Shown here in pieces: positions 36,427 to 41,170 of a DNA stretch of 64,000 nt (position 1 is its first letter; each line of letters opens with the position of its first letter). The translations under genes were made by a program, and so were the position numbers. The notes below the pieces were generated by a model. The model saw only the letters and a program-made list of their open reading frames with translations, searched no databases and was not told the origin of the DNA. Source of the DNA: Gordonia crocea. Its GTDB lineage: Bacteria > Actinomycetota > Actinomycetes > Mycobacteriales > Mycobacteriaceae. The stretch is taken from the NCBI RefSeq assembly GCF_009932435.1, contig NZ_BJOU01000001.1, positions 2,406,480-2,470,479 on the forward strand, written 5' to 3'.

Positions 36427-37946
36427 CGCGGCTCCCCCGCCAGTGCGACTGCCGCCGCGGCAAACGCATCGCCGCGCGCCGCGTAGCTGTCGAACATGTC
36501 GAGGGAGGCTGCGGCCGGGGCCAGCAGGACGGCATCGACGGAGTCGTCGGCCTGCGCGATCTCCCACGCCTGCCGGACGGCCTCGGCCATCACCGCCACG
36601 GCGTTCGCCCGGTCGGCGGGTGACTCCGCCGACGCGAAATCACGGGTCGGCACTCGTTTGTCAGCACTCACCCGTCCATCGTCGCCTGTGAATACTGTGA
36701 CTGTTGGGACTTCTGGGGCGTGTCGCGCAATCGCCCGCACAATCTGATCCCGATCGCGGCCGATGGCGACCACCCCGGCCAGCCGTGGCGAAGCGTCGGT
36801 GACCAGCCCGTCGACCGAGGCCCCTTTGAGCAGTCCCCCCGCGACGAGCACCACCCGCCGCCGTGCCGCGATCGCCGCCGCGGCCGCATGTGGATTGGTG
36901 GCCTTGGAATCGTCGACGAACTCGACCCGACGCCCGGCGCCGGCCGCGGCGCGTGCCACCGTCTCGCCGCGGTGCCCGGCCGGGGCGAAGGACGACAGCC
37001 CCGCCGCGATCGCCGCCACCGGGATCCCGATGGCCAGTGCCAGGGCCACCGCAGCCAGCGCATCGGCACGCCCGGACGGCCCCGCCGGGTGGATCCGCGC
37101 GGCATCGACGACCTCGCGGCGGTCGCTGAACGCCCAGTCGACGAGCATCCCGTCGGCGACGCCGAGTTCCCCCGGTCCCGGGGCGCCGAGGGTGAACACC
37201 ACCCGCCGCGCGTCCCGGCCCACCGGCAGTCGTGCCGCGACCGGGTCGTCGCCACCGACGACGGCCACCCGTCCGCGCAACGCGCCGGCCTTGGCGGCGC
37301 TGTAGCCGACCATTCCGCCGTGCCAGTCGAGATGGTCCTCGGCGACGTTGAGCACCACCCCGGCGTCGGGATGCAGCGACGGCGCCCAATGCAGTTGGAA
37401 CGAAGAGGCCTCGACGCACAGGACGTCCACGCGCGGCTCCCGGCACAACACGTCCAGCACCGGCGTCCCGTAGTTCCCGCACGCCGCCACAGTTCGGCCC
37501 GCGGCCGCCACGACCGCCTCGAGCATGGCCGTCGTCGTGGTCTTGCCGTTGGTGCCGGTGATGATCGTCCACGTCCGCGGCGGGCCGGTGGCGCCGCTGC
37601 GGTCGACCCACCAGGCGAGTTCGACCTCCCCCCACACCGGGACCCCGGCGGCACCGGCCGCGGCCACCAGCGGGTGGCCGGGCGCGAAACCCGGGGAGAC
37701 GACCAGTAGTCGGGCGTTGCGCCACAACTCCGCGTCGGCGAGTGCTTCGTCGACACCGGATCGGCGCATGCCGTCGTGCACCGACGGGGCGGCGAATGCC
37801 GAGTCCACGACGGTCACCCGGGCGCCGGCGGACTGCAGGTACGCCGCGGCCGACCGACCCGCCGTGCCGTTTCCGGCGACCACCACCTCGGCGCCGACCA
37901 GGCCGGTCACCAGGTCGACCCCCTCGGCGCGACTGTGCTCAGCCAC
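36423..37946 (-). CDS. murD: UDP-N-acetylmuramoylalanine-D-glutamate ligase
   Basis: Adds D-glutamate to UDP-MurNAc-L-Ala; 507 residues. The Mur ligase ATP loop is [14 protein letters not shown], followed by CVEASSFQL and [10 protein letters not shown] in the central domain and [15 protein letters not shown] in the C-terminal domain. Its start lies eight bases inside the mraY stop region. Compare with the neighbouring murE, where the equivalent downstream ligase is missing. Confidence 0.95.
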
Positions 37947-39051
37947 CGAAATTCTTGAACTCGCTGTAGAACAACGACAGGCCCAGCCCGATGGAGATCG
38001 CCGTCAACAACCAGAACCGGATGATGACCGTCGTCTCCGCCCAGCCGCCGAGCTCGAAGTGGTGGTGGAACGGGGCCATGCGGAACAGTCGCCGGCCCGA
38101 GGTGCGGAACACCACGATCTGCAGCACCACCGACACCATCTCGGCGACGAACAGGGCGCCCAGGACCACCGCGACCAGCTCCGTGCGCGTCACGATCGAC
38201 AGCCCGGCGAGCAACCCGCCCAGGGCCAACGACCCGGTGTCACCCATGAAGATTTTTGCCGGCGCGGCGTTCCACCAGAGGAACCCGAGGCACGCGGCAC
38301 CGCCGGCCACCGCGAGGATCGTCAGGTCGAGCGGATCGCGCACCTGGTAGCAACCGGGCGCCGACGGCAGCCCGGCCGCGCCGCCCTGGCACGCGTTGCG
38401 GTACTGCCAGTAGGTGATCAGCACGTAGGAGCCCAGCACCATCGCCATCGATCCCGCGGCGAGGCCGTCGAGGCCGTCGGTGAAGTTCACCGCGTTGGAC
38501 CAGGCGGCGACGACGAACCAGACGAACAGCACGAACACCACGCCGCCGAGGCCGGCGAGTGAAATGGCGTTGATGTCGCGGGCGTAGGACAGGTGTTCAC
38601 TGGCCGGCGTGTAGCCGTACTCGTTGCGGAACCGCAGCACGAGGATGCCGAACAGGATGGCCGCGATGGCCTGGCCGACGGACTTCGCGGTCTTGTTCAA
38701 GCCCAGGTTGCGGTGCTTGCGGACCTTGATGATGTCGTCGAGGAAACCGACGCAGCCGAGCATGACCGCCAGCCCGAGGACGAGCAGACCCGACGCGGTC
38801 GGTCCGGATCCGTCGAGGGCGTACCCCGCGATGTGCGCGCCGAAATACCCGGCCACCAACGCGGTGACGATGGCAACACCGCCCATCGACGGGGTGCCCC
38901 GCTTGGTCTGATGGCTCTCCGGGCCCTCGAGGCGGATCTCCTGGCCGAAGCCCTGCTTGGAGAACACCCGGATCAGCACGGGGGTCAGCGCAATCGAGAC
39001 GATGAGGCCGACTGCGCCGGCCACCAGAATCTGCGTCACGTCATGCGTCAC
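37939..39051 (-). CDS. mraY: Phospho-MurNAc-pentapeptide translocase
   Basis: Transfers phospho-MurNAc-pentapeptide to undecaprenyl phosphate, making lipid I; 370 residues, about ten membrane helices. Conserved motifs are [39 protein letters not shown] and [11 protein letters not shown]. The GTG at 39051 has GGAG seven bases before it; a GTG four codons later is an alternative. A 94-base gap separates it from the murE fusion. In related genomes murF sits exactly here. Confidence 0.95.
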
Positions 39052-39145: not shown

Positions 39146-41170
39146 TCAGATCGGGCGGATCACCAGGTCCCGCTCCGCCAGCGCGTCGAGGACCGGCTGC
39201 CGGTCCCAGGCGCCGGCAAAGGCCACCACATCTCCGGGGGCCGGCGAAAAGTCGCCGGACCCCTCCCACAGGGCGGCCAACTCGGCCGCGTCGGCGACGA
39301 GTTTGGCTTCCTCGCCCCACGATCCCTCCATGACGGCGCCCTGGTGGGCTGCTCGGACGGGTCGTGACCCGCCGACGCAGACCACTTTGTCCACGGCCAG
39401 CCGCACCGCGGTCCGGGTGAGGCGGTCGTGGTCGACGACGCTGCGCGCGATGTCACCGTCGTCGGTCAATTCGCCGAGCACCAACCAGGTCCGCGAGGAC
39501 CCCGGATCGCCACGATGCGCACTGCCGGCGCCGGAATCGGCGGCGACGGTCACCAGGCGGCGCACCAGTGCGCTCCCGTCGGCCACCGACGCGTCGGTCC
39601 CCGCATCCAAGACCACGATCGGGCGCCCGGCGACCCGCTGCGCCAATGCCTCCCGCAGCACCACGCGGTCGTCGAAGTCGTGTTTCACCCCGTTGACCTC
39701 CTGACCGGTCTCGTGCCCCTTGCCCGCGACCAAGACCACGTCGCCGCTGCGCGCCCACGCCACGGCCGCGGCGATCGCCGCGGCGCGCCCGCCGACCTCG
39801 CGGATGTCGGTCGCGCGTCGATCGTCGTCGGCCAGGCCGCGCGCACCGGCCACCACCGCCGCCCGGATCGCGGCCGGGTCTTCGCTTCTGGGGTTGTCAT
39901 CGGTCACGATCACCAGATCGGCGGCCCGGGCGGCCGCCGCGCCCATCTGCGGGCGCTTGCCGGTGTCCCGGTCGCCGCCCGCACCGAGGACGACGCCGAT
40001 ACGGCCCGGCGCCTCGGCCGCCAACGTGGCCAGGACCGCCTCGACGGCGGCCGGTTTGTGCGCGTAGTCGACGACGGCGAGGAAGTCCTGACCGGCACGG
40101 ACCGGCTCGAGGCGCCCCGGCACGACGGCGTCGGCGATCCCCGCGCAGGCGCGCGCCACGTCGGCCCCCGCCGCGGCACACAGCGCCACGGCCAGCGCGG
40201 CGTTGGTGACGTTGTAGCGCCCGGGCAGCAGCAGGTCGAGGTGGTGCTGGCCGTCGTCCGGGTCCACCACCGCGGCACCACCGGGTGCGGCCACCGCCGT
40301 CCAGCGGCCCGGCGCCGACTCCCGCGGTGGCGCGTCGGCCGTCTCGACGGTGGCCGGGTCGACGGCGATCGCGGCCATCCGCCGCCCCCACTCGTCGTCG
40401 ACGCAGATCACCGCCGACGATGCGGCCACCGGTGAGGCCGGGTCGAACAGCGCGGCCTTGGCCGCGAAGTAGTCATCCATCGTCGGGTGGAAGTCGAGGT
40501 GGTCCTGCGACAGGTTGGTGAATCCGCCGACGGCGAAGGAGGTGCCGGCCACCCGTCCCAGCGACAGGGCATGGCTGGACACCTCCATGACCACGGTGTC
40601 CACCCCCCGCTCCAGCATGGTGGCCAACAGGGCCTGCAGGTCCGGTGCCTCCGGCGTCGTCAGCGACGACGGCGCCGTCTCGCGGTTGATCCGGGTGGCG
40701 ACGGTGCCGATGAGCCCGACCGAGCGACCCGCGGCCAGCAGCGCCGATTCGACCATGAACGCGGTGGTCGTCTTCCCCGATGTGCCGGTGATCCCGATGA
40801 CGGTGAGGTCCCGGCTCGGATGGTGGTAGACCCGGGCGCTGACGGCACCCAACACCGATCGCGGATCGGGGTGGACCAAGACGGGGACGGCCAGTCCGCG
40901 CACCAGGTCGGCACCAACCGGGTCGGTCAGGATCGCGCTCGCCCCGCGATCGAGGGCCTCCGCGGCGAACTCGGCACCGTGGGCGCGCTGTCCGGGGAGC
41001 GCGGCGAACAGATCGCCCGCCGCGGCGCGCTGGGCGCGCAGCGTCACGCCGGTGACCTCGCCACCCGACTCGGGATCCGACGCGCCGATCAGTTCGGCGA
41101 GAACGGCCACCGGGGTCGGGACGACCCGCACCGGGCGGAGCGCATCGGATGAAGGGGAATCAGTACCCAT
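39146..41170 (-). CDS. murE: MurE (UDP-MurNAc-tripeptide synthetase) fused to a degenerate MurF C-terminal domain
   Basis: 674 residues, about 150 longer than usual MurE. Residues 1-510 are a normal meso-diaminopimelate-adding ligase: ATP loop GITGTSGKTTTAF, TTPEAPDLQ, NLSQDHLDFH and the DAP-specific DNPR (VTDDNPRSEDP, near 427), ending AGKGHETGQEV and FDDRVVLREAL. From about residue 515 the frame continues without a break into sequence resembling the last domain of MurF: RTWLVLGELTDDGDIARSVV, HDRLTRTAVRLAV, then HQGAVMEGSWGEEAKLVADA and PGDVVAFAG. MurF's N-terminal and ATP-binding domains are absent, its YNANP motif reads DAGTDAS, and its final K-[AG]-S motif is lost. The extension is therefore unlikely to be catalytic. 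No other murF occurs in the window. Confidence 0.88.
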   Translation of the reverse strand: MGTDSPSSDALRPVRVVPTPVAVLAELIGASDPESGGEVTGVTLRAQRAAAGDLFAALPGQRAHGAEFAAEALDRGASAILTDPVGADLVRGLAVPVLVHPDPRSVLGAVSARVYHHPSRDLTVIGITGTSGKTTTAFMVESALLAAGRSVGLIGTVATRINRETAPSSLTTPEAPDLQALLATMLERGVDTVVMEVSSHALSLGRVAGTSFAVGGFTNLSQDHLDFHPTMDDYFAAKAALFDPASPVAASSAVICVDDEWGRRMAAIAVDPATVETADAPPRESAPGRWTAVAAPGGAAVVDPDDGQHHLDLLLPGRYNVTNAALAVALCAAAGADVARACAGIADAVVPGRLEPVRAGQDFLAVVDYAHKPAAVEAVLATLAAEAPGRIGVVLGAGGDRDTGKRPQMGAAAARAADLVIVTDDNPRSEDPAAIRAAVVAGARGLADDDRRATDIREVGGRAAAIAAAVAWARSGDVVLVAGKGHETGQEVNGVKHDFDDRVVLREALAQRVAGRPIVVLDAGTDASVADGSALVRRLVTVAADSGAGSAHRGDPGSSRTWLVLGELTDDGDIARSVVDHDRLTRTAVRLAVDKVVCVGGSRPVRAAHQGAVMEGSWGEEAKLVADAAELAALWEGSGDFSPAPGDVVAFAGAWDRQPVLDALAERDLVIRPI

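Follow-up and report, generated by a model that had tools for sequence, protein, structure and literature searches.

A catalytically dead MurF domain 3 conserved between murE and mraY in Gordonia and sister genera, and fused to MurE in Gordonia crocea

Gene arrangement at the murE–mraY locus

We analysed a 64,000-nucleotide (nt) stretch of the Gordonia crocea genome (contig NZ_BJOU01000001.1, positions 2,406,480 to 2,470,479), hereafter the window, in whose division and cell wall (dcw) cluster a single minus-strand frame of 674 amino acids (aa) encodes a complete MurE followed by 164 further residues homologous to the third domain of MurF. This third domain, called the module below whether it is fused to MurE or encoded separately, is a real, selected, clade-wide orphan domain lying between murE and mraY, and the complete MurF of these genomes is encoded elsewhere. 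The first-pass annotation, made from the DNA letters alone, had described a full MurE running into a MurF-like tail with mraY 94 bases downstream; the match to the MurE model NF001124 and the homology of the tail bore out the former, and the distance to mraY was as given.

The MurE part exceeds the equivalog cut-off of NF001124 and is thereby assigned to MurE (Table 1). GTSGKT and DNPR, which are MurE motifs, were both read in its sequence, and the fused protein is predicted to have MurE activity. The tail aligned with positions 324–401 of the 418-position MurF profile TIGR01143 at 20.5 bits, short of the cut-off of 288.6. Against the bifunctional MurE-MurF model NF008896 the fused protein scored 448.8 bits over residues 40–518, where the cut-off is 1023.

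Table 1 Features of the fused gene and its neighbours (positions within the window).
Feature	Positions	Strand	Basis or remark
Fused murE and MurF-domain-3 frame, 674 aa	39146–41170	minus	
MurE part, residues 1–510	39641–41170	minus	NF001124, 590.8 bits, residues 33–512 (cut-off 476)
MurF-domain-3 tail, residues 511–674	39149–39640	minus	stop codon 39146–39148
Conserved tail core, RTW..LGE to EGSWGEEA, tail residues 50–116	39293–39493	minus	dN/dS and invariant columns
EGSWG element, tail residues 105–109	39314–39328	minus	76/76 modules
Site of lost YNANP, tail residues 12–18 (DAGTDAS)	39587–39607	minus	alignment with native MurFs
Site of lost K-[AG]-S, tail residues 139–144 (VAFAGA)	39209–39226	minus	alignment
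mraY, 370 aa frame, next gene	37939–39051	minus	94 nt past the tail stop
murD frame after mraY, 507 aa	36423–37946	minus	Mur-ligase match; named by position and sequence

Distribution, position and fusion state of the module

The module was counted in 76 genomes, comprising 59 of Gordonia and 17 from five sister genera. One genome (G721, genus g318, 66% complete) was excluded from these counts; it had no MurF at E 1e-20, no mraY, and a module match at E 0.037. A search with the tail of G. crocea matched 50 of 61 genomes in a set of relatives, including all 37 Gordonia (G. crocea among them), and outside Gordonia every match lay within a longer frame of 482 aa or more. An order-wide search of 298 genomes matched 131 at E 1e-8; the 126 matches outside Gordonia were all in frames of at least 474 aa, as expected for normal MurFs. 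A profile built from 58 modules detected one copy without inner stops in each of the 59 Gordonia genomes, and in 17/17 genomes of the five other genera, which share the short MurF encoded beside ddl that is described below, the module was found immediately upstream of mraY.

All 76 genomes carry the module as an uninterrupted frame of 148–215 residues placed between murE and mraY. Either it comes straight after the murE stop or it is part of the MurE chain, and the P-loop-bearing domains 1 and 2 of MurF are missing in every case. The distance from the module stop to the first aligned base of mraY ranges from -4 to 168 nt. Since the domain occupies this place in 59/59 Gordonia genomes, an assembly error at the junction is ruled out, as the first-pass annotation had argued from the divergence of the tail. 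The sequences themselves vary considerably, 57 other modules being 34–68% identical to the tail in the window. The same annotation had described a fusion: the tail domain proved to be present throughout Gordonia and the sister genera counted, but the fused form was found in only 18 of the 76 genomes, all Gordonia, and the module is a separate gene in the other 58.

The murE stop is TGA in 58/58 genomes with a separate module, and in 55 of these 58 the module can start in a 4-nt overlap with it; our start-calling script favoured this start where present, so that the choice of start, unlike the frame, was partly imposed. Under the same preference, 22/25 native murFs have a possible start at this overlap too, and the module therefore seems to have retained the native murF start codon. 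Mapped on a MurE plus MraY tree, the fused and separate states require at least five changes, or four when well-supported branches only are counted.

Structure, motifs and origin of the module

Structure predictions of the modules converge on one confident fold, and the modelled fold is that of MurF domain 3. A sequence-only search of the PDB with the tail returned weak copper-ATPase domain matches (E 0.037 and above) and no MurF, a Pfam scan of the window's own tail gave no domain, and the Pfam family Mur_ligase_C was detected in 24/58 modules. Foldseek gave no match under E 0.001 and ranked MurF first at 1.7e-3; a repeat comparison with VIA-align 2 after this marginal result gave a clear match. 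The resemblance of the tail to MurF thus holds at the level of structure as well.

The first-pass annotation had noted that YNANP and the terminal K-[AG]-S were diverged in the tail, and this extends to the whole clade. NANP is present in 0/76 modules, compared with 25/25 native MurFs and 25/25 of the MurFs encoded beside ddl (ddl-side MurFs). K-[AG]-S is absent from the last 70 residues of all 76 modules; the longer pattern V-x-V-K-[AG]-S is found in 24/25 native and 24/25 ddl-side MurFs. Judged by these motifs, the module cannot be an enzyme. The element EGSWG, by contrast, is kept in 76/76 modules and occurs in 22/25 native MurFs and 0/25 ddl-side MurFs; in the ddl-side rows displayed from the alignment, its position falls in a gap of about 15 residues.

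In a tree of third domains, the 21 modules used form a single clade (support 99). Modules and native MurFs together are split from the ddl-side and other MurFs at 94, below the mark of 95. These topologies fit a single origin of the module by descent from the native MurF.

A ddl-linked MurF elsewhere in the genome

The first-pass annotation had held that the dcw cluster contains no complete murF and that a functional copy must lie elsewhere. In the G. crocea genome (99.99% complete) the only murF over the cut-off is indeed remote from the dcw cluster, at C1:556520-557755 (384.1 bits), where an intact gene of 440 aa lies divergent from the D-Ala-D-Ala ligase gene (ddl). A second candidate on contig C6, seen as a three-piece match, was rejected. 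C6 (10,983 bp) nearly reproduces the C1 region around the intact murF, with 99.84% identity over 10,553 columns, 1 mismatch and 15 gap openings, and ends in a broken murF; the likeliest explanation is that the assembly duplicated this region with small indels. Every genome of the relatives set (61/61), its 37 Gordonia included, has a MurF over the cut-off.

In a tree of 77 MurFs, 25 native MurFs (GTDB family f1) formed one group with a value of 99 in the Shimodaira–Hasegawa-like approximate likelihood-ratio test (SH-aLRT). Gordonia and its sister genera contributed 25 ddl-side MurFs, which fell elsewhere and grouped with two sequences of family f88, from another class (96). Branching order inside this group was not resolved, and the 25 alone were supported at 74. 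Gene order agrees with the division: murE-murF-mraY was found at 25/25 native loci examined, and ddl adjoins 25/25 ddl-side murFs. It also adjoins murF at 15/17 loci of families f88, f58, f84 and f43, where one exception is cut by a contig end, and at 4/4 loci of family f3, which belongs to the taxonomic order of Gordonia. Within the order, close relatives of the ddl-side MurF were found in 10/348 genomes, namely six Gordonia and four of f3. By its place in the tree, the ddl-side MurF is a xenolog, and because both the tree and the ddl synteny extend across families, we conclude that a ddl-murF cassette has moved between lineages. Replacement of the native MurF in this clade is the simplest reading, since a remnant of the native gene persists in the dcw cluster; the direction of transfer, which the tree by itself cannot settle, is an inference. 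Several families and classes of the phylum share this arrangement of ddl and murF as a divergent pair outside the dcw cluster.

Selection on the module

The ratio of nonsynonymous to synonymous change (dN/dS) was calculated from Nei-Gojobori counts with Jukes-Cantor correction, not from a codon model, and pooled over 30 disjoint pairs drawn from the 76 genomes with proportions of synonymous differences (pS) of 0.05–0.5 in MurE. Pooled values were 0.22 for the module core, 0.46 and 0.50 for its two ends and 0.37 for the whole module, compared with 0.21 for MurE and 0.11 for MraY; purifying selection acts on the core as strongly as on MurE. The ratio was 0.39 in five fused pairs and 0.33 in 21 separate pairs, the other four being mixed. 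Across 58 aligned modules 15 columns are invariant, 14 of them inside the core, whose pattern centres on HD..GR..VRL..VG..R......QG...EGSWG.E. R76, R93 and W108 of the module are among the invariant residues. The module shows no deficit of synonymous change (0.393) relative to murE (0.363) or mraY (0.322), evidence against constraint at the nucleic-acid level.

Discussion

The survival of this domain suggests that it has a function in its own right, a possibility already raised by the first-pass annotation and supported here by purifying selection, presence in 76/76 genomes of six genera, and recurrent fusion to MurE. We propose that, after xenologous replacement of MurF, domain 3 of the native enzyme was conserved without catalytic activity and serves, coupled to MurE, in docking or regulation; we regard this explanation as evenly poised between right and wrong. 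In the ancestor that Gordonia shares with Williamsia and allied genera, MurF supply would have passed to a divergent ddl-murF cassette from another actinomycete lineage. The native dcw murF would then have lost domains 1 and 2, seemingly keeping its start codon in the 4-nt murE overlap together with its third domain. This remainder has lost the ATP and substrate motifs, but purifying selection preserves its fold and core. In 18/76 genomes, G. crocea included, it is now joined to the MurE polypeptide. We infer that the module acts without catalysis, as a docking or regulatory unit produced in step with MurE, and may offer, in trans, a surface of MurF that is missing from the incoming enzyme; MurE would thereby remain attached to a former partner of the native MurF. 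Candidates from the literature are Wag31, NamH, MraY/MurG and a kinase. On this account the module would be a cell-wall adaptor of a new type, in which the third domain of a swapped enzyme supplies the docking surface missing from the newcomer and is fused to the preceding enzyme in several lineages; here we come down just short of even. The adaptor gene would then be conserved clade-wide, possibly essential, and mostly labelled MurF in public records.

The binding data published for Mur ligases bear on which partner the module may have. In a Mycobacterium tuberculosis study, Wag31, SepF, FtsZ, FtsW, FtsQ, PknA and PknB were found to bind the Mur ligases, and DdlA and NamH bound MurF alone (PMC3605390; a correction concerns panels of its Fig. 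5, PMC10965061). For other bacteria, two further papers link MurF with MreB, MraY and MurG, and report that MurD, MurE and MurF did not bind one another in the absence of MreB or MurG (PMC4929429, PMC6420597). DdlA is a weaker candidate, because ddl arrived together with the new MurF.

Several observations weigh against this proposal. In all 18 other genomes that have this type of MurF, four of f3 and 14 from other classes, mraY comes directly after murE without a module (gap -1 to 115 nt), so that retention is special to one clade and not an automatic by-product of a MurF swap; a module profile search of the 14 other-class genomes gave, as its best result, one match at E 0.40. EGSWG is absent from three of the 25 native MurFs (L184, L187 and L192), which keep the catalytic motifs, and is therefore not required for MurF as such. 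Only 19 of the 30 single pairs had a ratio of nonsynonymous to synonymous differences (pN/pS) below 0.5, from which we take single short pairs to be noisy. The model of the fused protein (predicted template-modelling score, pTM, 0.72) shows no sure packing of the tail on MurE. A fusion needs just one frameshift from a 4-nt overlap, and its recurrence is therefore modest evidence of a MurE partnership. Finally, Mur ligases did not bind one another in the M. tuberculosis tests (PMC3605390), which weakens direct MurE-MurF docking and leads us to favour a third partner.

Were the module instead an allosteric or ligand-sensing device, the dead domain 3 would bind a pathway metabolite or MurE itself and tune MurE with no third protein docked. 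The third domain of Mur ligases participates in substrate binding, and the overlap of the module with murE in 55/58 separate cases, like the fusion in 18/76, would suit such a device; the loss of the ATP and substrate motifs from every module and the lack of a fixed MurE contact in the predicted fused structure make it unlikely. A more specific version of partner recruitment, in which the kept surface is the former site of NamH or another MurF-only partner and N-glycolylation stays coupled to precursor synthesis, draws on the binding of NamH to MurF alone (PMC3605390). The three native MurFs without EGSWG come from genomes of about 2–2.7 Mb, that of L184 belonging to genus g27. This genus is presumably Corynebacterium, in which muramic acid is not known to be glycolylated. 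However, EGSWG is also carried by L070, which comes from another family of the class (f18, probably Streptomyces, in which glycolylated muramic acid is likewise not known); recruitment of NamH is decidedly improbable.

It is likewise improbable that the stretch matters for expression only, holding mraY signals or keeping ribosomes on the mRNA between murE and mraY while the protein is idle. Translation-coupled starts and the short gap to mraY are compatible with that, but amino-acid change in the core is restrained, synonymous change is not, 15 columns are invariant, and 18/18 other genomes manage without the module. The data contradict a decaying, functionless pseudogene of the displaced murF, which we consider highly improbable: although the catalytic motifs have been lost, the ends change rapidly and the modules have diverged widely in sequence, neither a broken frame nor relaxed selection was found, since the frame is open in 59/59 Gordonia and 76/76 genomes overall, the core ratio is 0.22 and the models agree on one confident fold. 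That the module teams with MurE domains for MurF chemistry is extremely improbable. A Mur ligase has three domains, of which this is one, set on MurE in 18/76 genomes; we rejected the idea on the loss of NANP and K-[AG]-S in 76/76 modules and the complete, over-cut-off MurF in all 37 Gordonia of the relatives set. A docking or adaptor partnership is a candidate role of the module.

The arrangement resembles the bifunctional MurE-MurF fusions of the Bordetella pertussis type (NF008896) in placing MurE and then MurF material on one chain in the dcw cluster (PMC6420597, PMC4929429). Unlike those active fusions with three MurF domains, the G. crocea protein has only domain 3, without the catalytic motifs, and in its predicted structure the last helix of MurE and the first strand of the tail are three residues apart, as against a linker of about 20 residues in those fusions (PMC4929429). 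With the native dcw MurF the module shares its homology to domain 3, the murE-mraY slot and, when separate, the 4-nt overlap, but it lacks domains 1 and 2 and both motifs. The ddl-linked MurF, found in Gordonia, Williamsia, Epidermidibacterium, Cumulibacter and other classes, now performs the MurF step; it differs from the module in lineage, in the absence of EGSWG and in genome location. MurT-GatD and the MurE-like subunit of plastid RNA polymerase (PAP11) are near-complete Mur-ligase proteins. They, too, place Mur-ligase C-terminal domains in assemblies (structural matches 6gs2, 8qma and 9epc), whereas the module is a third domain on its own, still at its old place in the operon, in genomes where a xenolog has replaced its parent.

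Whether the cytoplasmic Mur ligases form a physical complex is debated, one published M. tuberculosis test being negative for Mur-Mur contacts (PMC3605390). In this clade evolution appears to have split MurF, giving catalysis to a foreign enzyme without EGSWG and retaining a non-catalytic domain under selection. A gene of about 150–215 codons may therefore offer direct access to a non-catalytic role of MurF, which is hard to reach where MurF is one essential chain. Literature searches of open-licence papers returned nothing on an orphan MurF domain beside MurE.

Public records also need correction. In the 120 best-scoring of 640 short homologues, lone modules are named 'UDP-N-acetylmuramoyl-tripeptide--D-alanyl-D-alanine ligase', 'hypothetical protein' or 'glutamate ligase domain-containing protein'. 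Because of the first of these names, such genomes seem to hold two MurFs, and a domain that by its motifs would be no enzyme is listed as a MurF ligase, which is relevant to target and essentiality lists. Lone domain-3 proteins of about 128–210 aa are recorded as full MurF ligases in many Gordonia and Williamsia genomes. The short homologues include modules of G. polyisoprenivorans and G. westfalica.

Two further observations were made in the same order. The four f3 genomes have murE-mraY gaps of about 91–115 nt without a leftover domain and offer a clean loss for comparison. One order relative has, in addition to a full MurF, another MurF-like frame (G045:C45:18348-19670) that scores lower, at 176.8 bits, and does not reach the cut-off.
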